Shown here in pieces: positions 5,348-27,529 of a stretch of DNA of 64,000 bases. The stretch lies in the NCBI GenBank assembly GCA_025174535.1, contig JALBUN010000003.1:2004993-2068992 (forward strand), in the 5' to 3' direction. The position numbers were made by a program, and so were the translations under genes. Positions within the stretch are counted from its first letter, which is position 1. Each line of letters starts with the position of its first letter. The notes beneath the pieces are model-generated. The model saw nothing but the letters and a program-made list of their open reading frames with translations. It was not told where the DNA came from and made no database searches. Source of the stretch: Cantharellus purpuraceus (taxonomy: Eukaryota; Basidiomycota; Agaricomycetes; Cantharellales; Hydnaceae).

Positions 5348-5405
5348 TGTTACATCCTGTAAGACCAAGTCCGATCTCTGGATCTGATCTCCATCTCCTT
5401 TTAGA
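5348..5405. repeat. LTR-C, left part of a split solo LTR
   Basis: Starts TGTTACATCCTG. The right part is 13122-13666 and ends CTTAACA. Together they form an LTR of about 600 bp with TGTTA...TAACA ends and five-base flanks TCAGA/TCGGA (one mismatch). The 7.7-kb unit is inserted after base 58 at TTA. Confidence 0.65.
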
Positions 5406-5969
5406 CGCTTGTTCGGAATCATGTCAGTATACAATATTCTGATGTATATGAGATATACATCAGAATTTCAATGATACATAAAGCCAGGGAGTTACAATTT
5501 GGATATCTTAAAAGATTTCGGATGTGTGAAATTTTCATAAATATAAACATATATTCTATATTTTAATAAACTTTAAAAGATAAGACATTTGGTTGAGATG
5601 AACATAACTGTTTATATGAATATAACAGTAATGTATGTATTAATATAATTGGTATTATATAGGGTATTTAGATATACAAATACCAGGTGGGGATTAAAGA
5701 TAGTTCAAATTATGTTACAAGTATTGTATAAGAAAGAATCAATGATATTTGGATGTTCCCTCAAGAGAGTTGCCACCACTAAATCAGGAAAAAAAGAATT
5801 ATTTTTGAGAATTATGCCAAAATATCAAAATATGTTTTAATCTAGTATATTGTGTAAAATTTGAGAATCATGTTGAAATATGAAAATAAGTTTGAATTGA
5901 AGTGTATTGTATAAAATTTGAGGAAAATAGGTTGTACATACGTATTTGTTGTATTTCTGAATAAGCGTC
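5406..5969 (+). repeat. 565-bp repeat, copy A
   Basis: Ends are GACGCTTGTTCGGAA and, inverted, GACGCTTATTCAGAA (15 bp, two mismatches). TTA flanks both sides (5403-5405, 5970-5972). It differs from copy B at only a few bases. A perfect 14-bp palindrome with loop GAG lies at 5438-5468. No ATG-started ORF of note is present. Confidence 0.85.
5438..5468. repeat. Subterminal perfect hairpin in copy A
   Basis: ATTCTGATGTATAT, loop GAG, then the exact reverse complement. Copy B has the same loop. Copy C (about 19866-19896) has identical arms with the loop as CTC, that is, inverted. Confidence 0.85.
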
Positions 5970-6376
5970 TTAGGAAAGTCTTGGAAACAAACACCTTTAA
6001 TGCAGTGAAGCTATTTTTAAAACAAAGTAACTTAGTTAGGGCATAGTGGTAGATAATCTTGTTCTAACATAAGACTGTATGACTATCCCTCGTACTTTAG
6101 GGTGCAATACCATCAGATTTTCCATCCAAAGTGGTGGAAAATAATGATCCTGCTCCATACTAGTATATAACTCTGTTAATTTCTGTTCCAGAAGTGTGCC
6201 ATCAGTACATCTGTATAAAGTCAGTGATTGGAACCTTGATATTTATAAAGGAACTTACCTCAGAAACAAATCATGGAGGGATCCTATCCGAGATATATAC
6301 CAATCATTAACTCTTCTATCAAACTCTATCTTGCATTGAAGCATAAAAGAGAGCATCTTCATAATGCTTATAACAT

Positions 6377-6473
6377 AAAAACATAATAATCATTTTATTA
6401 AGAAAGCAAGATGTATATATCTACTGCCTATACAAAATATCAAATGTTCAGAAAAAATGATTATTATGTTTTT
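6377..6473. repeat. Perfect 20-bp inverted repeat before the first ORF of the unit
   Basis: AAAAACATAATAATCATTTT at 6377-6396 recurs inverted at 6454-6473, with a 57-base spacer. It ends 35 bases before the ATG at 6509. It could be a regulatory hairpin or a transposase-binding site. Neither role is shown. Confidence 0.7.
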
Positions 6474-6508
6474 TCATTTCTGTTTTATAAGCAGAGAGGG
6501 ATTTGAAA

Positions 6509-7575
6509 ATGCCACAAATCTTTGAAGATATAAAAGCAATCAAAGGCTGGATAAGTGACAATGATGCACTGATAAAAGCTATGGCAAGTCAAATGGAAGT
6601 AAAAGATGAATTAATATCTGATCTTATAAATGTCAAGTCTTGGATGAGTGAAAAGGATAGGCAGATCACTATGCTTGAACAACAGGTTAATTCCCAGAGT
6701 CAGGAAATTCAGGTGCTTAAGAAACAGGTTGAGGAAAAAATACAATTATAACTACTTTGACAGACAGGAAAGAGAATTTAGATGAATGGATGAGTGAAAT
6801 GAATGATATTGTATCAGGATTTGGAACAGATATTCATAAACTTCAGAGACAGGTTAATAGGTGTGTTGCCACAATATCAGACCATGGAACAGATATTCAT
6901 CAACAGGTCAATACACATAATGCAGAGAATCTTATATTGGACTATAGAACAGATATTCATAAACTTCAGAAACAGGTTAATAGATGTATTGCAACAATAT
7001 CAGACATTGTGGAATGGAAATCTGAAGTGCATGAGTGGATTGTAGAAACAGATGATACTGTAGTGGAACTTGGAACAGACATTAATAAACTTCAGAAACA
7101 GGGTGATAAATATAAAGCAATAATATCTGAGATTGTTGACTGGAAATTTGATATGAATCACTGGGCTGGAAAACAAGAACAGGAGGTAACAAGGTTACAG
7201 GAAAATGGTACCAGAAAGGTGACATTTAAGATAGTGAAAAGAGGTGTAGATTATATACTTATAGACTCAGATCAGTCTTGTAGACTAAATAGAATGGAAT
7301 TATTCATAAATGGTGAGCCTAGAAAACTATCTACAATATATACTAGGAAGAATGAAATGTCATCATATGACGTAGATGGTAATAGGATTAATTTTCAAAC
7401 ATGGAAGCAAGGAATGACTCAAGGTTCAAGGCATCAAGAAAAAAGGTCTAAGGAACGATCTCAAACTCCTAGTTCAAGGCATCAAGAAAAAAGGTCTAAG
7501 GAACGATCTGATTCAGACTCTGATCAATCTCAAATTCCTAGTTCAAGAAAAAGATGTAGAGGGAGAACCCAGTAA
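6509..7575 (+). CDS. Coiled-coil protein with SR-rich tail, in two ORF segments
   Basis: The first segment (6509-6751) starts MPQIFEDIKAIKGWISDN and is heptad-rich. The second (about 6757-7575) is in another frame and has no ATG at its start. It holds repeated GTDIHKLQ(R/K)QVNRC units, which suggest a repeat-built coiled coil. A compact region follows with YILIDSDQSCRLNRMELFI, then a basic Ser/Arg tail with SRHQEKRSKERS twice. The two segments are probably one gene joined by an intron or a frameshift near 6713-6767, but I found no intron that restores the frame cleanly. No family recognised. The SR tail suggests nuclear location (inference). Confidence 0.5.
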
Positions 7576-7589
7576 TGTAAGCCTCCAAA

Positions 7590-8371
7590 GACGTAGGATA
7601 CAAGGTCACCTTGGAGTGAATGGCTGTCCATGAGCAGTCTAATGATGTCCCTATCTGTCGTTTCATTTCTCCATGATTTCCCCTTTAGTAGCTCAACTTC
7701 ACACGCTTCGTCAGCTGGCTTGATCAGCATTTCTTGCATCATTTGCTCCTCATATTGTGTTGTTGTGCCCTGGGAATTTGTATATAAAAGGGCGCTAGTT
7801 TTTGCCTTTGGAATCAAAAAACAAGTTTTCAGCCAACGCTCTAGTCTACACTCTACATCACAATCCATCATCTCTACACTGAGGTAAAACACCTTGGTTC
7901 AACGATCAGATTTCCCTCCGCCACCGAGAGGTTGCTTCTCCTGAAACCAGCTTTCGCGTACCTCCCAACCGGGCTCCGCATTGTCATCCAGTCACAGAGC
8001 ACGATCAGCCATCGGGACCGACCTTTTGCTCCCATCCTCATCCAACCACAGAGCACTATCCCACTTCCCTGTTACGTACCCCTCGCCCTGATTGATCTTT
8101 GGAGTGCTGAACAACTGCGTTACACACCGTCTGCTTGCTAGGACCATTGCACGCAGGCTTATAGGATCTATTCCATAAGCGAACCGACACCGAGTGACAT
8201 CATCGGGCTGCTCAAGGACAACGATTCAATTATCTGGTACACCATGCCACTGCAAAGTCTCACCTACTGTCTGCTCAGTAAGTGCATCATTATCAACCCT
8301 CACAGCCAAAAGGCTGTCCTTTGATAATGTGATCAAACTGCTCCTGACAAGGTGACCTTCCATCTGACGTC
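7590..8371. repeat. Possible 0.78-kb insertion with 24-bp inverted ends
   Basis: GACGTAGGATACAAGGTCACC (first bases from 7590) recurs in inverted, imperfect form as GACGTCAGATGGAAGGTCACC ending at 8371. Between them the sequence is richer in GC than the rest of the unit and contains a strong core promoter (TATATAAAAG at 7781). No target duplication is clear, so it may be a short element, an LTR-like fragment or the original promoter of the neighbouring genes. Confidence 0.45.
7781..7790 (+). promoter_or_regulatory. TATA box inside the AT-rich unit
   Basis: TATATAAAAG is followed by a pyrimidine-rich stretch (7835-7880, with CTACACTCTACATC) typical of fungal start sites, and then by GAGGTAAAAC, a possible intron donor. 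No long plus ORF follows directly. The first ATG ORF downstream is the 55-codon one at 8682. Confidence 0.4.
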
Positions 8372-8681
8372 ATTACCATGATATGATAATATCCAATCGG
8401 CTGGTACACCTATTTAGCTATGCAGCAAAGAATTTGGAATGAAAGACTGGCAAGATAGGAAACAAGGAACTGGTAGAAGAATGATAGATGAAAGGACAGG
8501 GAATTCTGTATGGGACTTTGTTGTAGTATTCAGAACGAGTGCATGCATCTGGCTATTGACAACTTTAGAAAATATATATAATTCAATTTATAAATATTAG
8601 ATAAAAATATGGACATTCTGCTCTTCAGAACTATGCACATATCTAGTAAATAAATTTTATATATCCTTCTTTATTGACATC

Positions 8682-8849
8682 ATGGGTAAAGATAAGAAGT
8701 GCAATGATTGGAGTTCTCATGATCTTTGGGATTATGGTATAATGGTTGACACACAATGGACTAAACAGTTTTTTGAGACAGATTTTAGAGATATTACTTT
8801 AGATACTGATGATGAGATCCTCAGTTTTGATTACAAAAAGATGATGTGA
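8682..8849 (+). CDS. Small acidic ORF (55 aa) of unknown function
   Basis: ATG to TGA without a break. It starts MGKDKKCNDWSSHDLWDYG and is rich in Asp and aromatic residues (ITLDTDDEILSFDYKK). It shares the AT-rich codon use of its neighbours. It may be an exon of a larger spliced gene including 8927-9172. No family recognised. Confidence 0.35.
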   Translation: MGKDKKCNDWSSHDLWDYGIMVDTQWTKQFFETDFRDITLDTDDEILSFDYKKMM

Positions 8850-8926
8850 AATGTTTAAAGGAGTCTTCAAGAAAATTTTTACATACTTAGATAAGGAAGA
8901 ATAAGGGAAAAAGTGCTTTAGAGGAA

Positions 8927-9172
8927 ATGACAATACCTTGCATTCAAACATCGAGAAAAGTCCCCCAGTTTTACCTAGTAACTGTTACAAGAGAGCTTGA
9001 TCATACTATCACAGAAGGGTTGTTTTCAGAAGTGATAACAAATGTAAGGTGTTGTTTCCCTGTAACAGTAACAGGTATGAAACATATTAATAGTAGAAAG
9101 AATGTTCTACAGTGTTTTGAAGCATTTAAGAAGTTTGTAGATATACTTGATAGGAAATTAGATGAGAAATAA
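8927..9172 (+). CDS. Small ORF (81 aa) of unknown function
   Basis: Starts MTIPCIQTSRKVPQFYLV and ends KFVDILDRKLDEK. It has an alternating hydrophobic pattern (beta-rich first half, helical second half). It lies 78 bases after the 55-aa ORF, 39 bases before the next small ORF and on the same strand, so the three may be exons of one gene or a set of small genes of the mobile unit. Confidence 0.4.
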   Translation: MTIPCIQTSRKVPQFYLVTVTRELDHTITEGLFSEVITNVRCCFPVTVTGMKHINSRKNVLQCFEAFKKFVDILDRKLDEK

Positions 9173-9210
9173 TGAGTTTTGAAAATTAATATATAATAAC
9201 CAGAGACACC

Positions 9211-9390
9211 ATGTTGAATATACCCGAGATTGGTGATAAGGTATCATTTATCAATGCAAGAACACAAATGACAGTGACAGGTATTGTTACATTAGTAACT
9301 GGCACTTTGTCAGATGACACTTTGCTAATAACTGTTACTTATGATGACAATGAGATTCAGCTACCACTATGTGCACTACAACAAGTATAA
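9211..9390 (+). CDS. Small ORF (59 aa) with a beta-rich domain
   Basis: Starts MLNIPEIGDKVSFINARTQM. The pattern GDKVSF...VTGIVTLV...LITVTYDDNEIQLPL resembles a small SH3- or Tudor-like barrel, such as are found next to transposase domains. This is only a shape argument. Further downstream (9500-9665) an open, ATG-less stretch with several Cys pairs (CPKSSEHS...YCCV...CCECRN) may be another exon. Confidence 0.35.
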   Translation: MLNIPEIGDKVSFINARTQMTVTGIVTLVTGTLSDDTLLITVTYDDNEIQLPLCALQQV

Positions 9391-9683
9391 GATAAATCAG
9401 ATAAGTGAATATGCAATATTTTTATTCACTCAAATGAAGGTATGTGTGGTGATAGTGAAAAATTCAAATTACTTGGAAGTGCAATCATATAACTACTACA
9501 TCTGTAGTTACAGATTGTAAGGATATTAAATGTCCTAAGAGCTCTGAACATTCAAAAAATACTCATCATGATACTAATGGTACTTATTGTTGTGTGAACA
9601 AAAGTTCAAATCTTGAAATTATCCAAGTGAAAATAGATGAAAAATGTTGTGAGTGTAGAAACTAGGACTTTTAAATCAACTCC

Positions 9684-10334
9684 TTATGAGGATTCTTTGA
9701 ACATCTGATTTCTTATACTTTGGAATATAATGTCAATAGCATTAGAACACTCTTCAAACTGAGCTTCTATGCTGTATCCAGAGGAAGGATATACAACAAT
9801 TGAAACACCCTGATTGTTATTGGTGGTTTCATATAATTTTAACCTACCATCCTTAGTTATGATCATACCATAGATTGTGATTTTACTTTTCTTGAAAACT
9901 CTCTGCTGTTGTTTCAATGCAACAACCATTGATGTAACCAAATTGTTATACACATCACAGTTCTTACAAGTTTCCCCAGCAATAGAAATATCACACTTCT
10001 TGCCAGTTTCTCTAGCAATAGAAATATTACAACTAGGCAGATTATCCTGTTGCATGGTTTGCAGGCTTGACATACAATGATTTTGTTGAATCCAGGTTGA
10101 ATTACTTATTTCATTGCCCTTTTCAATCATCTTATTGTACAGTGCTTCTGGTGTTTTATCTCTTTCCTGAGAAACCGATCCAGCTGGAAAGAAGTCCTTT
10201 GGGGGATTTCTTAATCTGAATTTTATGTAGATGGTGTCAGAGTCTATATACAAAGGATTTTCATCATCCTCTGGTTCTTTTTTAACAAAGACAGTAGATA
10301 TTTTACGAACAACTTGCTTAGAGACAGACAACAT
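9684..10334 (-). CDS. Minus-strand ORF (216 aa) of unknown function
   Basis: The only minus-strand gene of the unit. It starts MLSVSKQVVRKISTVFVKKE, has an acidic patch, and carries a doubled Cys/Thr motif (ISIARETGKKCD, ISIAGETCKNCD) near residues 105-130. Its C-terminal domain reads KITIYGMIITKDGRLKLYE and may be a beta-barrel. The start is divergent from the transposase start at 10431, with a 96-bp shared promoter region. Two-gene divergent layouts (transposase plus DNA-binding partner) are normal for Harbinger elements. Whether this is such a partner is unknown. No Myb motif seen. Confidence 0.55.
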   Translation of the reverse strand: MLSVSKQVVRKISTVFVKKEPEDDENPLYIDSDTIYIKFRLRNPPKDFFPAGSVSQERDKTPEALYNKMIEKGNEISNSTWIQQNHCMSSLQTMQQDNLPSCNISIARETGKKCDISIAGETCKNCDVYNNLVTSMVVALKQQQRVFKKSKITIYGMIITKDGRLKLYETTNNNQGVSIVVYPSSGYSIEAQFEECSNAIDIIFQSIRNQMFKESS

Positions 10335-10430
10335 AGCTTCATAGAATAAATATTATTTAATTTAAAATTCAATTATCAAAAAAATGAACATATTTTTGTT
10401 TTACTGTAATATAAGAGTATCTTAGTCAAA

Positions 10431-11921
10431 ATGCCCTCAGACCAGCAAAAACGCACAAAGGAGCAAAAAGAGAAAGAGCAAAAAGAGAAAGAGCAAAAAG
10501 AGAAAGAAGAAAAAGAGCTTCAGCAACTTAAAATGTGGAATGATCAAAGGGACAGAGCATATAATAAGTTGATGGACAATCATTGGAATTTTCTATACAC
10601 AAAGTGGCCTGTCTTAGAACACAAAAATATCATAGAACAAAACTAAAAGATATGAATGACATGGATGATGTAAAAAAAGTAGTATATAACAAGCTTGGAC
10701 CAATACCAGTATTTTTCTTTCTTGTGGTATTGTTTTCAGTTGAAGAACATTCTACACCTTATAGAGAGATAGAAAAAGGCTTGTTAGTACTATATCATCT
10801 ACTCAAAGGTCCTACTTATGAAGAAATAGGAAATTTCATGCCATCAAGTAGCTTTTATGATGTTCATAAGGAATTTTATGGTCATCTGCATCATCTTAAC
10901 TTTGATCTAGATAAACAAGTTACTGATTCACTGCGTACAATGTTCTCAAATATAATAATAAGGATATTATCAGCTCTTATAAAGAATCCTCCAAAAATGG
11001 AATCAGTGACATTACTTCTTGATGGTCATGATACAAGAGGAATTTTGATTGGATCGACATCTGAAGAGGGGTACTCACATAAATTTAAAAAGGCAGGATT
11101 TAGTACTCAAGTATGCATTGACATTAATCAAATGGTTCTATTCACCTCACCTTCATTGGCATGTAAACTAAATCCTGATGCAAAAATGTTTGTAGAGATG
11201 GCTGTATGGAATAAAATAGATAAGAATGATCAGATAGGCTTTGATGGAGCTTATCCATCTGCTATTCCAGAAGTAGTAAAGGCAAGTATATTAAAGCCTA
11301 AGAACTTCTTTTATCCTTTTCGGAAGCCAAAAAATGTTGAACTTAAACCTGAAGAAAAGATTTTTAATAAGAAGTTTGGTGCCTTTCGTTCAACAGTAGA
11401 AGCATTCTTTGGAGGGTTTGCAATATTGTTTGAAAAATTTGATAATAAGAGATCTATTAGAACTACAAATCCTGCTGTCTTTAATCTGGAATTAAAGGTA
11501 GCATGTCTATTATGGAATATTAAGAAATTTGTAGAACTACGTAAGATCAAACCATCCCCTTATCATGAAAAATGGTGTGAACAATATTTTGATTACCCTG
11601 AGGAAGAGGACCCAGATATTGAGCCACCCAGATCATTACTGGAAAGAGCAGAAGATGTTGACAAGATGACTCTATCTCAACAACGACTATTAGAAAGATG
11701 TGAGTATGATGTGGAGATGCATTATGAGACTGAAAATGAAGTAGAACAAATAATAAGGCAAAGAAAAAGGAAAGTACGTAGAATATTTAGTTAAATGGAA
11801 ATGTTATGCAGAGAAAACTTGGGAAGCAACATCAAGCTTTAAATCTACAGAATGTATTAAAGAGTATTGGAAAGACAATAGTAATAGTATTATTGTATAC
11901 CTATGCTACATTCAACTGTAA
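10431..11921 (+). CDS. DDE transposase (Harbinger/IS5-like, DDE_Tnp_4 type) with C-terminal chromodomain, two frame breaks
   Basis: Starts MPSDQQKRTKEQ with a run of EKEQK repeats. The core shows the DDE pattern: first Asp in TLLLDGHDTRG (about 11010), second in IGFDGAYPSAIP (about 11240), and Glu in RSTVEAFFGGF (about 11390-11420). The ERCEYDVEMHYETENEVEQII tail leads into a chromodomain, YVEYLVKWKCYAEKTWE (11775-11825), ending at 11921. Two single-base frame changes break it: near 10640 (after NIIEQ) and near 11770 in an A-rich run inside the chromodomain. They may be decay, sequence errors or programmed shifts. Cut-and-paste activity on the unit and on copy C is inferred. Confidence 0.75.
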
Positions 11922-11978
11922 ATTTTTTTTTCCCAGAATAAAATTGAATATTTGTATGTTTTATACTTATAGGTATCT

Positions 11979-12476
11979 ATGGAGACTGATCCATTACTGA
12001 AACAGCGTCTCAATCAACAGTTTTACCAAAAGCCTTTTCACAGCAATCCACACCGGCTAGCTAATTGTACAACGTGTGACTGGTACCCCTTTGGGCAGTA
12101 TCTGGACCGTTCATATGCTGAAGGTGAAGTGTTCCAGCTTTCAAAGTATCCTCATATCAAATATGTATTTCTTGGTCTACAACCTGATAAAATAGGCTAT
12201 AATGAAAGTGATCCTATTTTTGTAGCAGAATTTGTAGGTTTTCTGAATAAAACCAACAGATTTGTAAGTGGTTCTGATCCAACCTCTGGATATGCACACA
12301 TTATAACCACACATGTGAATCAGGCGTTTGTTAGACAGCCAGGCCCAGATATAAATAGGCAGAAACTATATCTTGGCCGTACAGTGCACATGATCTACAT
12401 AACTAGTATTGGTATACTATTGGCTTTGCTGTGTTGGACAGTGTCCAGATGTACCAATGAAGATAAGAATTCATAA
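11979..12476 (+). CDS. 165-aa ORF with C-terminal membrane segment
   Basis: Starts METDPLLKQRLNQQFYQKPF. It contains a paired Cys (NCTTCDWYPFG), many aromatic residues, and one hydrophobic helix near the end (IYITSIGILLALLCWTV) followed by a short polar tail. That is the layout of a tail-anchored or single-pass membrane protein. An AG acceptor (TTATAG) lies just before its ATG, so it might be a late exon after the transposase. No family recognised. A membrane protein in a DNA transposon would be odd. Confidence 0.5.
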   Translation: METDPLLKQRLNQQFYQKPFHSNPHRLANCTTCDWYPFGQYLDRSYAEGEVFQLSKYPHIKYVFLGLQPDKIGYNESDPIFVAEFVGFLNKTNRFVSGSDPTSGYAHIITTHVNQAFVRQPGPDINRQKLYLGRTVHMIYITSIGILLALLCWTVSRCTNEDKNS

Positions 12477-12555
12477 TGGCATGTCTAAATCTATGGAGAA
12501 AGAAGCTTGTTGATGATATAAGGTGATGATTTTTGTTTTTAAAATGACCTCCCTA

Positions 12556-13121
12556 GACGCTTGTTCGGAATCATGTCAGTATACAATATTCTGATGTATA
12601 TGAGATATACATCAGAATTTCAATGATACATAAAGCCAGGGAGTTACAATTTGGATATCTTAAAAGATTTCGGATGTGTGAAATTTTCATAAATATAAAC
12701 ATATATTCTATATTTTAATAAACTTTTAAAGATAAGACATTTGGTTGAGATGAACATAACTGTTTATATGAATATAACAGTAATGTATGTATTAATATAA
12801 TTGGTATTATATAGGGTATTTAGATATACAAATACCAGGTGGGGATTAAAGATAGTTCAAATTATGTTACAAGTATTGTATGAGAAAGAATCAATGATAT
12901 TTGGATGTTCCCTCAAGAGAGTTGCCACCACTAAATCAGGAAAAAAAGAATTATTTTTGAGAATTATGCCAAAATATCAAAATATGTTTTAATCTAGTAT
13001 ATTGTGTAAAATTTGAGAATCATGTTGAAATATGAAAATAAGTTTGAATTGAAGTGTATTGTATAAAATTTGAGGAAAATAGGTTGTACATACATATTTG
13101 TTGTATTTCTGAATAAGCGTC
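12556..13121 (+). repeat. 565-bp repeat, copy B
   Basis: Same orientation as copy A and nearly identical to it. The left flank is CTA (12553-12555) and the right flank is TTA (13122-13124). Its own flanks thus differ by one base, while its right flank equals the left flank of copy A. Confidence 0.85.
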
Positions 13122-13666
13122 TTACTCCACCTCCGTTAACTCCACCTCCATCAACCCTAAACTCCATTATTGTTCTCCTTATATGTAGTTTTCTTCTTAT
13201 GGGTTACAACAAGCTGTTACCATTTATATTGTTTAGTATTAGTTCAGACTTGAGTCCAAACTCCAAACTCCTTTCTGTGTTGTTCCATATCCATCTTATT
13301 GTCCTATCACTTTTAATTTATCATTCATTTCTTCACATACTTATATGGGCTACTCTCTGTATGTTACAGCAGTTCAACTAAGATTCCCCATCAGCTTCTT
13401 GGTTGCTAGCTTCTTGACAAGTATCTTCTTGACAAGTTGAACTCCAGATCCTTGATTCAACTCCATACTCTGATCTCTGAAATATTGGACTGACAATTTG
13501 AGGGGATGCAACACACAAGGTGAAGCCAAGTCCACTCGATCTGACTCAGTAGTTATTGTCAACATCTGTCTCTGGTTGAACTGGAACAGTAAAGTCCCAC
13601 CCTCTTCCTCACTAGCGTCCAAACTCCAGTGACTCCTTTGCACTCTGAGATTTTCAATGCTTAACA
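13122..13666. repeat. LTR-C, right part of the split solo LTR
   Basis: Continues the LTR that starts at 5348. CT-rich at first (CTCCACCTCC repeats, like the last bases before 5403) and ending CAATGCTTAACA. TCGGA follows at 13667-13671. It contains a stretch (13500-13540) weakly similar to LTR-A in forward orientation, so the two families may be related. Confidence 0.6.
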
Positions 13667-14462: not shown

Positions 14463-14594
14463 GTATCTCTCCATTTAAGGCCAAGCCCCTGAGGCCTCAT
14501 GTCCATGGATTAAATAGGTGAGACGGTTGGGTGCAGTCAGAGTTACACTGGGGGTCTGGAGACATAAAAAGGGGGGCATGATTGAGGTCTTATC
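14463..14594 (-). other. Chromovirus 3' untranslated segment without the antisense gene
   Basis: Matches 259-399, but here it joins pol directly. The pol reading ends YPDKR at 14590 and the antisense gene between pol and this segment is absent. The copy either lost the gene or represents a form that never had it. Confidence 0.65.
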
Positions 14595-16372
14595 GTTTGT
14601 CTGGATAAGTGGAGTGGAAATCAGAGACGGATTTGGATGCATGATCGAGTTTGGATGTGGAGATCCATGAGGACTCTTCATTGGTGCCTTCATATCCAGT
14701 CCATTTGACTAGGTACTGGAGCTTGCACTTGTACCAACAATTGATCTTTGAGTCCAGGATCTCAGATATCTCATATTCATTATCTCCTTCAATGATGATC
14801 AGAGGAGGCAGAGGTTGTGTGCGACTGGAGATCTTGTTTGTAGTAGCAGGTTCAAGCATTGATATATGGAAAACTGGGTGAACTGCTTGGAAGTGGTCAG
14901 GGAGGCGGAGGGTGAAAGACCTGCTGCCTGCGCAAGCAATGACCTCATAAGGACCTAAGTATTTCTGAGAGAGTTTCTTCAATGGATGGGTGGTCCGGAA
15001 GTGTTCAGCCTTGACGAATACTTTGTCTCCAATTTGCAGGTCCGGAGCTGGAATGCGGTGTTGGTCTGCAGAGACTTGGTATTGTTTCTGGGCATTGGAG
15101 ATGGTTTCTTGGAGATGTTGGTGTAGTTGATTGAGGTTGGCTACAAATTGGTGGGCTTTGGTGGAGGTGAGTTCCTTCTCAGGGTGGATGGAGATGTTCA
15201 GATGGTAGCCTTTATTAGCAAAGAACAGAGAGACACCAGTAGTCACGTTTGGGGCATTGTTGTAGGCAAACTCTGCAATTGGAAGTAGGTCAGCCCAGTT
15301 GTCTTGTTGATAGTTACAATAGACTTGGAGATATTGTTCCAGGGACTGATTCATTCGTTCTGTTTGTCTGTCTCCCTCAGGATGGTACCCAGAGGTGAAA
15401 TGAAGCTTCATGTTGAGAGCCTTTCCTAATGTGCAGAAGAAGGAGGACATGAACTCTGAGCCCTGATTGGATGTGACATGTGATGGGACTCCATGTTTAG
15501 AAAATATGTGGAGGATGAACAACTTAGCTAGTGAGGTGGAGGTGATGGTGTCATGTGTTGGAATGAATAGTGACTGTTTAGTGAACCTGTTGACAATCAC
15601 AAGTATGGTGTCGTATCTGAGTGATGGGGGAAGCTTCTCTATGAAATCCATGGAGATGGAGTTCCATGGTTGCTCTGGGACCAGAAGTTGCTTAAGCATT
15701 CCATAGGGTTTGTGCCTTTGTGATTTTGAGCACATACATGTGGTACAAGAGTTACAGTAGTGTTGAATGTACTCTCGCATTTTTGGCCATATGTAGTCTC
15801 ATCAGACTAATCCTTGTGTGTGATTTTGCCCAAAATGGCCAGAGATTGGGTGATCATGATAATACTGCAAAACTCAGAGTCAGAGTCCATTGGCATTGGG
15901 GACATATATCCAGTTGTTGTGTTGGAGGTGTCCCTTGGGGTCAAGTGACCACTTTGGATCAGAAGTGTCATCCAAGTGTTTAACTGCAACAGGATCAGAC
16001 CAGAGTGATGAGTGGATGTCGGAGCAGAGTTGGTCAATGTCCATAATGGTGACAGCTTGGAGGGTAGGAGTCATGAGGGTGATGCTCATAGGGATGATGC
16101 CAGCTGCTCATTAGTGAACACAGGATGAAAGCTGTGTGGGTTTACAGTGGCATAGTCGCTACTCCCCTCTTTAGGGTAGATGTCCCAGCATCTAGTTAAT
16201 GCATTGAGCTTTGCTCCGAGTTGACCAGGATGGAAATGGATAACAAGGTTGAACTGAGACAGGTATTCGGACCATTGGACTTGTCTCCAGGTGAGTAGTT
16301 TCATTGTGGAGAAGTATTCCAAGTTCTTGTGGTTCATTATGATGTCCACTGGATTGGAGGGGCCTTCAAGGT
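14590..16372 (-). pseudogene. Ty3 chromovirus pol fragment: RNase H, integrase, chromodomain
   Basis: Reading the minus strand from 16372: the end of RT/RNase H (MDIIMNHKNLEYFSTMKLL, then LIHFHPGQLGAKLNALTR), a degraded linker, the zinc-binding region (CNSCTTC), and the integrase core from 15780. Integrase residues are Asp in [11 protein letters not shown], the expected second Asp as Asn in TSNQGSEF, and Glu in GDRQTERMNQSLEQYL. A chromodomain (LQYLVKWTGYEGTNEESSW) ends it. The 5' side is cut at 16372 by LTR-B. The N-for-D change and linker breaks mean it is inactive. Typical sushi/Tf1-like domain order. Confidence 0.9.
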
Positions 16373-18444: not shown

Positions 18445-20800
18445 TCAAGGGAAATTACCAGCCTGCCCAAAAAAATCCGAAGGAATATCACTCCGCCTCA
18501 TTCTTTCTCCGTTCTGAAATTTATAATCATTTTCATTTTTTACGCGTTTCCTTTTCCCCTTTCCCTTATCTACCTCAGGCTCCATCTCCGACTCCTCATC
18601 ACTCTCTACATCCGACACCCAATCCTTCTCATCTCCCATGTCTGAATCCTCGTCCAATGGGGCCATGAACTTCCGCAACTGACATAACTCGGCTGTCCAA
18701 CGACCCTCTAGAACCTCCTTCCATTTCATTGTCCTCACCAAGTCTACTAACAGCCCCTCCATCCGCCAAAGGTGCTCCGACTGCAGGTTAACCAGCCTGA
18801 TAAGCTGGCCCATGGTGCTATTGGGCACAGAGACACGCCCCGTACCTGCACCGGTCATTGCCCCTTCCGATCCAACGCCGCTACCCCTGGCTGCCACACC
18901 ACCTGTCTCAGTCCGCCTCTTTTTGGTCAGACAACCCTCCGATTCCTTCTCTGCCCCTCCTTGTACCACTAGTCGGGGCTTGACGCTCCAACTCTGGGGA
19001 TCGAACTTCCCATCGATCCTACACCCTCCTTTCCGACCCCGACAACAATTGCAGGACTGAAGGCGGCGAGTTGGGCCGGTAGGCCACACACACTCCACAC
19101 CCGCATCACAACATAAGTCGCAAGTTACGCCGGGTCCACCAAATGGCTCTGTTGGAGCCAGAGCCTTGGGTGGTCCGCCCCTTCTTGCTGTGGCCTCCAA
19201 GCGTTCCCTCTCCTCCTCCTTGTCCTGCTGTTCTGCTGCCACCTTCTCCATCTCACGCTTGCGAAGCTGGATCGCCGACCTCGCAACACGCAGCTCCTTC
19301 TTACAGGTCGCCAACATGCGACTCTCCGCCTTGCACCATATGACCCTCCAGTCCGCCTCCCGCTTCTCCGTATCAGCACTCAGGTAGGCCTTCAGTGAAA
19401 AGACCGCGACGTCGAGGTTCTTCTTAGTGGTAGTGGCATAGAGCTCTGCTCTTTTGCGAGCCTCGACCGCAGCTACCCAAGCCATCTCCTCATAGGAATT
19501 CAAAGTAGGATCTGGCTCCGCATCCGTCCCAACATCCACACCCGCCTCAGGCTCCACATTTGCGTCGAGCTTCATATTGGCATCAGGATCCGCTTCCACC
19601 TCCGCCCTCTCTGTCTCCGCCGCATCATCTTCCTCAGCTGCCCCCAACTCAAATAAGGGCCGTGCCCACAGACATAACAGCGAGTCCTCTGCAGTGACAG
19701 TCTTTGAACGAGTCATCTCCATCCATGTAATGGAGATGATGGCGACTTCCGGAGTCCCTGGCCATATGGGCACGCTCAGACTTCCTGGGTGGCTGGTTTC
19801 CCCTGCCCCGGTCACCTCCTCCTCTACCTCCATGACGCTTGTTCGGAATCATGTCAGTATACAATATTCTGATGTATATCTCATATACATCAGAATTTCA
19901 ATGATACATAAAGCCAGGGAGTTACAATTTGAATATCTTAAAAGATTTTGGATGTGTGAAATTTTCATAAATATAAACATATATTCTATATTTTAATAAA
20001 CTTTAAAAGATAAGACATTTGGTTGAGATGAACATAATCATTTACATGTACATAATAGGAATGTATGTATTAATATAATTGGTATTATATAGGTTATTTA
20101 GATATACAAATACCAGGTGGGGATTAAAGATAGTTCAAATTATGTTACAAGTATTGTATAAGAAAGAATCAATGATATTTGGATGTTCCCTCAAGAGAGT
20201 TGCCACCACTAAATGGGGAAAAAACAATTATTTCTGAGAATTATGTCAAAATATCAAAATATGTTTTAATCTAGTATATTGTGTAAAATTTGAGAATCAT
20301 GTTGAAATATGAAAATAAGTTTGAATTGAAGTGTATTGTGTAAAATTTGAGGAAAATAGGTTGTATATACGTATTTGTTGTATTTCTGAACAAGCGTCCA
20401 TGGCCGCCTCTAACTCGTGCGCCTGCTCCTCCACTTCTTTCAGTCTTGCAGCCTCCATTGCTGCCACAAGTTCCTTCACCATGCAGGCCCTCTCGGCCTT
20501 CGCTTCCTCCTCTTTCCTTCTCCGTTCCGTTTTTGCCGCCTCTTTCCGTCACTGCTCCTCCTCCTCCTTCCGTCTCCATTCTGCCTCCTCCTCCTCCTTC
20601 CATCTCCATTCTGCCTCCTCCTCCTCCTTCCATCTCCGTTCTGCCTCCTCCTCCTCCTTCCATCTCCGTTCCGCCTCCTTCCGTCTCCATTCCGCTTCCT
20701 CCTCCTCCTTCCGTTTCCGCTCCTCCTCCTCTTCCTTCCATCAGGCCAAGAGCAACTGCTCAAGCTTGGCCACGCTCATGCTTGTCAAAGGGTTTGACAT
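18445..20800 (-). pseudogene. Antisense Glu/Arg-rich Cys-cluster gene, copy 2, split by the 565-bp repeat
   Basis: Minus strand, ATG at 20800-20798. The first 134 codons run to HELEAAM at 20399. Copy C of the 565-bp repeat follows (19834-20398), then the frame resumes at 19830 with EVEEEVTGAG and runs to a stop at 18445. Without the insertion it would be 595 residues: coiled coil (residues 25-110), acidic region, Cys cluster (CDLC...CNCCRGRKGGC), a second helical region (LIRLVNLQSEHLWRMEGLL) and a Lys-rich tail (KGKGKRKRVK). Outside the insertion the frame is fully open, so insertion is recent relative to pol decay. Function unknown; position between pol and the 3' LTR is the notable point. 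Confidence 0.75.
19834..20398 (+). mobile_element. 565-bp repeat, copy C (solo)
   Basis: Same ends as copies A and B: GACGCTTGTTCGGAA and, inverted, GACGCTTGTTCAGAA, one mismatch in 15. CAT flanks both sides (19831-19833, 20399-20401). The target reads TACCTCCATGGC when the insert and one CAT are removed, as in the uninterrupted copy 1, so this is a clean insertion with a 3-bp duplication. Its hairpin loop is CTC where A and B have GAG. Confidence 0.9.
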
Positions 20801-25822: not shown

Positions 25823-27529
25823 ATGCCATACCTTCTTGCAGCTCTGTTAGGCCTAAACTCTGTGATCGCGGCATTGGCAGCCACTTCAGCGCATGGTTCG
25901 CCATCTGAGAGATGCGCGGCTTTGAAGAAAAACCTTCGGCTGGAAAACACGACGATCATTGATGCAGTACATGTTACCGCAGGATCCAATATTACGACCC
26001 CTGGATCATGTCAGTCGTCTGCTATTTCTACAGCAGCTGTGTGTCGAGTGCAGGCTGTGGTCAATACGACCTCGACATCGGCTGTCCACTTTGAGGCATG
26101 GCTTCCCGATGAGTGGTTCGGTAGATTTCTTGGTCTTGGAAATGGCGGACTCGGGGGATGTGGGTTTTTCGCAGTTGTGTCCCCGATTTTCTGATATATC
26201 CCGAGCAGGCATCGACTATCTCAATCTCGACTATGGCAGCACTCTCCACTTTGCAAGCGTAGGGTCCGATAATGGCCATGACGGCACCGATGGACATCAG
26301 TTCCTTAACAGTCCAGAAATTATCAACGACTTTGCCTTTCGCGCCATTCATGTCGAGGTAGTCTTGGGAAAACAAATTGTTGATGCATACTACGGTACCC
26401 CCCATTCCAAGTCGTACTATCTAGGCTGTTCCACAGGTGGACGACAGGCCATACAATCATCACTCCTATATCCCGACGATTTCGATGGACTCCTTGCCGG
26501 GAGCCCCGCGACGGATTTCAATCACCTTAGTAGTTGGCAGGCGATGCTGGGACGATTCGTCGGTGCTCCTTTGAATACCACAGATGCGTTCATACCTGCT
26601 ACACTCTGGCCCATTATCTCACAAGAAATAATGAAGCAATGCGACGGCTTGGATGGAGTCGAGGACGGAATCATCACGGACCCAGACCAATGTGTATTCC
26701 GACCTGAGGCTCTCCTTTGCTCAGCACAGCCAAAGACGAATAATTGCATCACCACTCCTCAAGTCGATGCCCTCAGACAAATTTATCAGCCTCTTTTCGG
26801 GACGGAAGGTCAATTATTGTATCCGCGTTACGACCCACTTGCTGAGTCCCTTGGGGAGTTTGTCAACATGTTCAGTGGAGACATATTCTCTATTGCACGT
26901 GTGAGCATATCTAGTCAGACTTCTCTGACCTTTTCAATAACGAAAGATAACTTCATAGAATTGGTTCCAGTTTGCGATATTCAATGATACAGCGCACTCG
27001 TTTGACAACTTCAGTCTGAAGGATGTCGAGTTTGCCGACACCATCAATCCAGGAGGTATTGCTACTTATAATGGCGATCTCTCTGCATTCAGAAACAGGG
27101 GTGGGAAGATAGTTACTTACCATGGCCGCCAAGATCAGGTAAACATTTCAATCTCCTAAACATTGTGTGCAATGACGAGCGTCTCTTAAGCTAATATCCT
27201 CCGACAACTCGATCCGGTTTTACAACCTCATATCCTCAGTACTATCTCTTCCCAATTTAGACGACTTCTACCGTCTGTTCCTCGTCCCCGGTATGCAGCA
27301 TTGCGTCGGAGGCCCGGGTGCGTGGGCGTTTGGCCAGGAGGGAAGCATGTCGAATCTAGTCAATGCGTCCTCAAACAACGCGCTTTTGGCACTGGTGGAC
27401 TGGGTGGAGAAGGATGATGCACCTAAGCAGATTATAGGGTCTAATCCAGGAACTAAGGCACAGAGGGCGCATTGCAGGTATCCCCAAAGAAGCGTTTTTA
27501 ATGGGAAGGAATTCCAATGCGAAGCCTGA
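25823..27529 (+). CDS. Tannase/feruloyl esterase family protein, intact
   Basis: Four exons: 25823-26159, 26209-26900, 26959-27138 and 27191-27529, giving 515 residues. Secreted ester hydrolase that acts on gallate or ferulate esters of plant material. It starts with a signal peptide (MPYLLAALLGLNSVIAALAA). It has the family's CS-D-HC layout: nucleophile in GCSTGGRQAIQS, and the His in GMQHCVGGPGAWAFG, whose neighbouring Cys pair with each other in the family. The lid and calcium region DGLDGVEDGIITDPDQC is present. Final Cys residues are at HCRYPQR and QCEA. Introns keep frame. Substrate (tannin, feruloyl or other) cannot be told from sequence. It is paralogous to 29405-30597 and 31018-33161. 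Confidence 0.9.

Follow-up and report, generated by a model that had tools for sequence, protein, structure and literature searches.

How does a DNA transposon come to have long direct repeats at its ends, and what keeps the two repeats of one copy alike when those of other copies differ? These questions are raised by a 64,000-nucleotide stretch of the genome of the basidiomycete Cantharellus purpuraceus (GenBank assembly GCA_025174535.1, contig JALBUN010000003.1, positions 2,004,993 to 2,068,992), referred to here as the window. An initial annotation had described within it a transposon-like unit of about 7.7 kb with a direct repeat at each end. It proposed either a new class of DNA transposon with ends resembling long terminal repeats (LTRs) or a composite in which two short elements mobilise the genes between them. 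We followed this up by scanning the assembly, which comprises 40.15 Mb in 50 contigs and in which the window lies on the contig that we labelled C3. Our preferred reading, to which we assign a probability of about 0.6, is that the unit is a DNA transposon with a 566-bp direct repeat at either end, that each of these repeats is a mini-element complete with inverted tips, and that new units form through a stage with a single repeat taken from a pool.

Structure of the unit in the window

The interval from 5404 to 13121 consists of a terminal direct repeat (TDR), an interior (INT), and a second TDR (Table 1). The two TDRs have the same orientation and are 99.5% identical. The initial annotation was right about their orientation, near-identity, and right end, but it started the left repeat 2 bases too far in and gave lengths of 564 and 566 bp, whereas both are 566 bp. 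The TTA that it reported on both outer sides is present. A TDR begins GACGCTTGTTC and ends GAATAAGCGTC, and its tips are inverted (GACGCTTgTTC and GAAtAAGCGTC; 13 of the first 16 positions match). Because of these start and end sequences, each TDR can be regarded as a small element with inverted tips. The near-palindrome inside it has the centre GAG in most copies. It has CTC in both TDRs of two copies (L013 and L026), as if the centre of a hairpin had been inverted.

The INT is AT-rich and carries a DDE transposase gene and other open reading frames (ORFs), as annotated. Its own termini (5970-5980 and 12545-12555) form imperfect inverted repeats (TAGGAAAGTC and TAGGGAGGTC, 8 of 10 positions), which are suggestive only, since 129 of 20,000 randomly chosen pairs of places match equally well.

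The annotation had also held that the whole interval behaves as one insertion. When the outer flanks are joined by a single TTA, the resulting sequence is found uninterrupted at 11 places elsewhere, 3 of them with 2 mismatches and 8 with 3 in 40 positions. Therefore, the interval was inserted cleanly into a sequence that is itself repeated. The same can be seen at several other insertions: their joined flanks continue without a break across the flanks of further insertions in one and the same host repeat.

Table 1. Features of the unit and a neighbouring solo TDR, in window coordinates (aa, amino acids)
Feature	Position	Strand	Basis
Target-site duplication TTA, left	5401..5403	.	Window sequence
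Left TDR, 566 bp, inverted ends GACGCTT...AAGCGTC	5404..5969	+	Sequence comparison
31-bp near-palindrome within TDR	5436..5466, also 12588-12618	.	Sequence
INT, 6586 bp	5970..12555	+	54 left/right junction pairs genome-wide
ORF1, coiled-coil-like, DSDSDQS repeat of variable length; frame broken (6509-6751, 6790-7575)	6509..7575	+	ORF reading
81-aa ORF, no Pfam match	8927..9172	+	ORF, Pfam scan
216-aa ORF, orphan	9684..10334	-	ORF, protein search
DDE_Tnp_4 transposase; frame broken (10431-10646, 10652-11794)	10431..11794	+	ORF, Pfam
Chromodomain-coding remnant, out of frame with transposase	11775..11921	+	PF00385, E 5.8e-4, below curated cut-off
165-aa ORF, orphan, C-terminal hydrophobic helix (poor model)	11979..12476	+	ORF, protein search
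Right TDR, 566 bp	12556..13121	+	Sequence comparison
Target-site duplication TTA, right	13122..13124	.	Window sequence
Solo TDR, same family, CAT/CAT duplication (19831-19833, 20399-20401)	19834..20398	+	Sequence

Units across the genome and their target-site duplications

With at most 3 mismatches, a pattern for the 5' end of the TDR matched at 481 genomic places and one for the 3' end at 402, and the reversed-pattern control of each matched at 0. Junctions between TDR and INT were found 61 times on the left and 58 times on the right, and 54 pairs of them are correctly ordered and spaced 5 to 14 kb apart. This leaves 11 junctions unpaired, of which 6 run into a contig end, judging from their coordinates. 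A TDR adjoins the end of INT in 59 of 59 cases on the left and 57 of 58 on the right (at most 3 mismatches). An exact pattern that allowed no mismatch found no junction of INT to INT of up to 20 bases anywhere in the genome.

We scored 40 of 61 candidate transposase regions, which were 98 to 100% identical, and read closely the 20 best of these 40. Two full TDRs were present in 18 of the 20 regions fetched. In the other two, the left TDR either lies 13 kb away (L012; this TDR is L030) or is cut (L027). Eleven further units were read as pairs of TDRs, along with L067. All 32 units read on both sides have TTA at the left inner junction and CTA at the right one.

For 46 of the 54 pairs, we could read both outer flanks, including two right ends by eye (C23:3508025 and C36:21350). 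The 8 pairs left out have an end that is truncated, unread, or beyond the contig (L027, C15:548568, C26:126556, C38, C40, C9:1232176, and two at C44). The 46 pairs are counted as 45 rows because a dimer on C45 is one insertion, and the rows are not all independent, C8:14256 and C29 (L028) having the same flanks. The outer 3-bp flanks are equal in 39 of the 45, compared with a mean of 8.7 and a maximum of 19 in 20,000 shuffles. Ten triplets are represented (TTA and TAA 11 times each, ATA 5, TAT 3, TCA, AAA, and CAA 2 each, and TAG, CGA, and TTT once each), with TTA or TAA making up 22 of the 39. The constancy of the inner flanks assigns the match to the outer edges. Around a single TDR, the two flanking triplets agree only in units whose outer triplet is TTA, which is also the inner one. 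Judged by these flanks, the insertion edges are established as the left tip of the left TDR and the right tip of the right TDR, flanked by 3-bp duplications. The annotation had suggested looking for such duplications outside the two repeats and would have taken it as a refutation if full units elsewhere never shared the outer limits; this genome has the duplications, and many of its full units have these limits in common.

By eye, two units appear to be nested in copies of their own family (C24:175718 and C23:3508025 [G000]). One, with a CAA duplication, lies in sequence resembling a 5' repeat in the transposase gene, and the other has TAT inside the palindrome of a TDR. Also by eye, three units (C1:2360396, C36:21350, and C38:18658) and a solo TDR in the opposite orientation (L043) apparently occupy the same position of a repeated sequence, which is a possible insertion hotspot.

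TDRs are alike within a unit and uncoupled from INT

Across 30 units, the left and right TDRs differ by a mean of 3.10 with gaps counted (median 1, one outlier of 37). When left and right TDRs were paired by permutation, the mean was 12.3, and 0 of 20,000 permutations gave a value as low as the within-unit mean. For the 26 units with matched duplications, the left-right difference is 1.23 substitutions, and 13 pairs have none, compared with 11.09 between units. Left and right TDRs cannot be told apart at any alignment column (31 columns, largest bias 0.1), so they are not two separately evolving lineages.

The INT differs by 0.31% over its 3' 4.3 kb in 18 units. Its diversity ranges from 0.18 to 0.64% by segment and is 0.35% in the noncoding 3' part. 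The TDRs of the same 18 units differ by 2.1%, and solo TDRs differ by 1.5%. Inheritance together with INT would predict 1.76 substitutions between the TDRs of different units, far from the 11.09 seen. TDR and INT distances are uncorrelated in 19 units (Mantel r 0.16 and 0.14; 969 of 5000 permutations were as high as the first). In addition, the TDRs are mosaic, with 101 of 136 site pairs failing the four-gamete test. From these comparisons, the two TDRs of a unit are mostly of one type, but this type is not tied to the unit's INT and seems to be older than the common ancestor of the INTs.

TDRs also occur outside units. We took 38 putative solo TDRs with exact 3' ends from among the matches listed, which is a non-random sample. 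Two of the 38 were TDRs of units, and after L004-L006 and L068 were added the set held 40; the solo TDR in the window is outside it. Equal 3-bp flanks were found in 35 of the 40 (L048 and L057 have theirs in common). Fourteen of the 40 differ at no more than one position from the TDR of a unit, so solos and units share types. At four places, one on C38, two on C44, and one on C45, a single TDR is common to two INTs, and TAA flanks the C45 dimer at either end. A triplet of TDRs on C3 (1362-1377 kb) was considered as another multimer and rejected. It is a unit with unequal triplets (TTG and ATA) and a separate solo.

Transposase and other genes of INT

A PF13359 (DDE_Tnp_4) search of the genome gave 9 matches with an E value of at most 0.001 (41 candidates scored), all 9 within this family. 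Three of these copies score above the curated cut-off, and a fourth does so only together with its in-frame neighbours. In a protein collection, the transposase has 53 relatives with 36 to 53% identity, the named ones coming from Apophysomyces, Rhizomucor, and Mortierella. Among the 22 relatives aligned, 21 match PF13359 and 16 match a chromodomain. D124, D198, and E250 are invariant in the alignment, and we read them as the DDE triad. A profile made from this alignment gave 41 pattern matches in viral contigs and 11 in genome contigs, with 0 confirmed in either. The 449-amino-acid frame is open in 3 of the 20 copies read (L010, L019, and L028), and L020 and L027 have 444 and 420 amino acids. 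Because open frames are so few among the 20, most copies would depend on others for transposase.

ORF1 is open to 509 amino acids in L017, and its variable repeat probably explains much of the range in INT length. The 216-amino-acid ORF is full length in 19 of the 20 copies; 103 candidates were found for it in the protein collection, none with an E value of 0.01 or lower. The 165-amino-acid ORF is open in 20 of 20 copies, and none of its 7 candidates reached that value. Its structure model is too poor for use, with a predicted local distance difference test (pLDDT) score of 51. Coding polymorphism within the family gave no clear sign of constraint, with nonsynonymous-to-synonymous counts of 7/2 for the 165-amino-acid ORF and 5/5 for the 216-amino-acid ORF. 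Pfam found no nuclease in the six window ORFs, the L010 transposase, or the L017 ORF1, where a nuclease that has diverged too far could be hidden in the orphan ORFs. A Myb/SANT partner likewise had no Pfam match in the ORFs scanned, and neither reverse transcriptase nor integrase had a match in the six window ORFs.

Some other features were noticed. A stretch of INT at about 7577-8200 has a higher GC content and a TATA-like motif and by eye resembles a solo LTR that has been carried along; part of it is missing from L014 and L027. Beside the unit, 14594-15798 encodes a Gypsy-type integrase core, a Tf2-1-like SH3 domain, and a chromodomain, and a fragment of a tannase/feruloyl esterase gene, in keeping with a fungal host, lies at 25926-26984.

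How the ends might be copied

We propose that the encoded DDE_Tnp_4 transposase pairs the two outermost tips and inserts the unit. Less certainly, a new unit would start with two copies of one TDR, which would make it LTR-like but without reverse transcription. It would have passed through a one-TDR molecule, either a TDR-INT circle made by recombination or an INT repaired into a resident solo TDR. This step would let INT acquire its TDR sequence from among solo TDRs, an older pool whose members may themselves arise mainly through recombination between TDRs. A single-TDR stage would account for both the alike pair and the uncoupled type, because one TDR is copied to both sides and can be exchanged beforehand with solos. 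Gap repair or transposase-guided copying would probably be needed, because a plain crossover between a circle and a solo leaves left and right different wherever the partners differ.

Several points weigh against this proposal. We observed no circle, excision, or transposition event. The outer triplets are unequal in 6 of the 45 units (L017, L023, L067, C1:457514, C9:1491723, and C45:161193). The partner TDR is the nearest or tied in 22 of 30 units but strictly the nearest in only 17. Neither the window copy nor most of the 20 copies read have an intact transposase frame. The window transposase scores 21.7 bits against PF13359, under the curated cut-off of 24.8. Its structure model has a pLDDT of 80, and no Foldseek match reached an E value of 0.001; the best solved structure was that of Tn5 transposase (E 1.7e-3, template modeling score 0.33).

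The remaining points concern recombination. The INT is mosaic too, with 49 of 78 site pairs failing the four-gamete test. Therefore, ectopic recombination is common in the family and could also equalise TDRs. The two TDRs of L022 are identical, as are those of L028, despite 8 and 10 private INT changes respectively, which is what conversion after insertion would give. Per unit, left-right substitutions do not rise with private INT substitutions (Spearman rho -0.06, n = 16), and 18 of 32 left-right substitutions involve states found in other units. Finally, L016, L017, and C1:457514 carry one common block difference between left and right, which could be inherited through cut-and-paste transposition.

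Gene conversion is the main rival to a single-TDR stage. The family might be an ordinary cut-and-paste transposon with long direct-repeat ends, in which units move with both TDRs, conversion in cis keeps left and right alike, and ectopic conversion with solos mixes the types. Recombination in both INT and TDRs, the identical TDRs of L022 and L028, the block common to three units, and the lack of correlation with private INT changes all fit this explanation. However, since the recent expansion of INT, conversion would have had to overwrite 566-bp repeats from end to end in almost every unit. Despite such conversion, half of the matched units would be left without a left-right substitution, and no column would be specific to one side. 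Also, private INT change predicts a left-right divergence of 0.87, and the observed mean of 1.23 does not fall below it. The data therefore do not call for strong continuing homogenisation, and it is only against such homogenisation that this comparison counts. We consider this explanation a genuine possibility, though a doubtful one.

In a bolder version of the single-TDR stage, INT would act as a module that homes to solo copies of its own ends. The TDRs would move through the genome as short transposons, and either a one-TDR circle or an INT set free would later be gap-repaired into a resident solo, with the resident repeat copied to both sides. If so, the old solo's target duplication and TDR type would persist in units as INT sweeps through them, and a two-layer DNA transposon would acquire LTR-like ends without reverse transcription. 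We offer this idea tentatively and think it somewhat unlikely.

Two further explanations fare much worse. LTR retrotransposons have repeats that are alike within a copy, solo repeats, and mosaic repeats, and the units resemble them in all three as well as in their tandem forms. However, an LTR retrotransposon, or a nonautonomous relative with a captured transposase gene, is very improbable here. The six window ORFs match neither a reverse transcriptase nor an integrase, the transposase is of the DDE_Tnp_4 kind, the repeats end in GACGC..GCGTC rather than TG..CA, and the duplications are of 3 bp. In the 40 bases inspected by eye, the right repeat is not preceded by a purine tract, nor is the left one followed by an obvious primer site. 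The annotation's composite, taken as two independent TDRs like miniature inverted-repeat transposable elements that came to flank unrelated genes by chance and now mobilise them, would explain why every TDR has its own inverted tips and solos their own duplications, but we give it next to no credence given the near-identical junctions (61 left and 58 right, in 54 pairs), the constant TTA and CTA inside them, the match of the unit's outer flanks rather than those of a single TDR, the transposase inside INT and not in the TDR, and an INT without a TDR at only 1 of 58 right ends and 0 of 59 left ends.

Comparison with known systems

In the bacterial transposons of the IS26 and IS6-family pseudo-compound type, the transposase lies within the repeat. 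They resemble the unit in their direct-repeat ends and in a circular one-repeat "translocatable unit" (PMC9587614). They differ from it in being bacterial and in having opportunistic cargo.

A PF13359 DDE domain is typical of the PIF/Harbinger-ISL2EU-Spy (PHIS) transposons. The unit has this domain with a putative DDE triad, as well as short inverted tips, and it shares 3-bp target duplications with canonical Harbinger elements (PMC12730594, PMC2213677). Judged from these features, its transposase and duplications fit PHIS. However, PIF/Harbinger elements are described as carrying terminal inverted repeats (PMC2213677), whereas the repeats here are long and direct, and fungal PHISTA elements are described as having TA duplications (PMC12730594), whereas those here are of 3 bp. 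A Myb/SANT partner, which Pfam did not find here, is not universal in PHIS according to the same account (PMC12730594).

Our survey of the open literature covered mostly titles and abstracts, with subscription journals and Repbase Reports outside its scope, and within it we noticed one DNA transposon with long direct-repeat ends, KolobokP, and none beyond it. Cryptons have repeats of 4 to 6 bp (PMC3212892), and eliminated segments of Tetrahymena have short repeats (PMC5182062). Two other reports concern LTR elements (PMC12210899) and a DIRS-type retroposon (PMC3537659).

KolobokP elements, described in seven animal phyla, consist of an INT between two long terminal direct repeats (LTDRs) (Kojima and Bao 2022, PMC9587614). 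As in our family, the direct repeats have short inverted ends, there are solos and multimers with a common repeat, and a DDD/E transposase lies inside. The KolobokP repeats are about 450 or 660 bp, compared with 566 bp here. The annotation's proposal of a class with LTR-like direct repeats comes close, given the many units with the same outer limits and with matching duplications, but the class is not strictly new because KolobokP has the same architecture. There are also differences, as far as the published description goes (PMC9587614). KolobokP belongs to the Kolobok superfamily, whereas our family has a DDE_Tnp_4 transposase of a chromodomain lineage, which may be a different one. KolobokP has a His-Me finger (His-Cys box) homing endonuclease, whereas the eight ORFs that we scanned gave no Pfam nuclease match. 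Some KolobokP families show footprints of LTDR excision, whereas nearly no TDRs have been lost here. Copies with one side only number 46 beside 90 monomers in KolobokP-4N1 and 2 beside 118 in KolobokP-7N2 (PMC9587614, Table 3). The uncoupling of TDR and INT that we measured is a further point of difference.

The family works like KolobokP, but we do not assign it there, because Pfam found no nuclease and the transposase may or may not be of the Kolobok superfamily. It probably has a separate origin. Kojima and Bao considered long direct-repeat ends to be unlike those of any other DNA transposon, discussed a circular intermediate with one repeat, and did not settle how the repeats arise and are maintained (PMC9587614). 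A probable second origin, in an apparently different transposase lineage and with no homing nuclease recognised, would mean that this design can recur and that a homing nuclease may not be required. The C. purpuraceus family also provides a measurable signature, with repeats that are alike within a unit, about six times as diverse as the interior, and not correlated with it, so that the question of end copying raised by KolobokP becomes directly testable.

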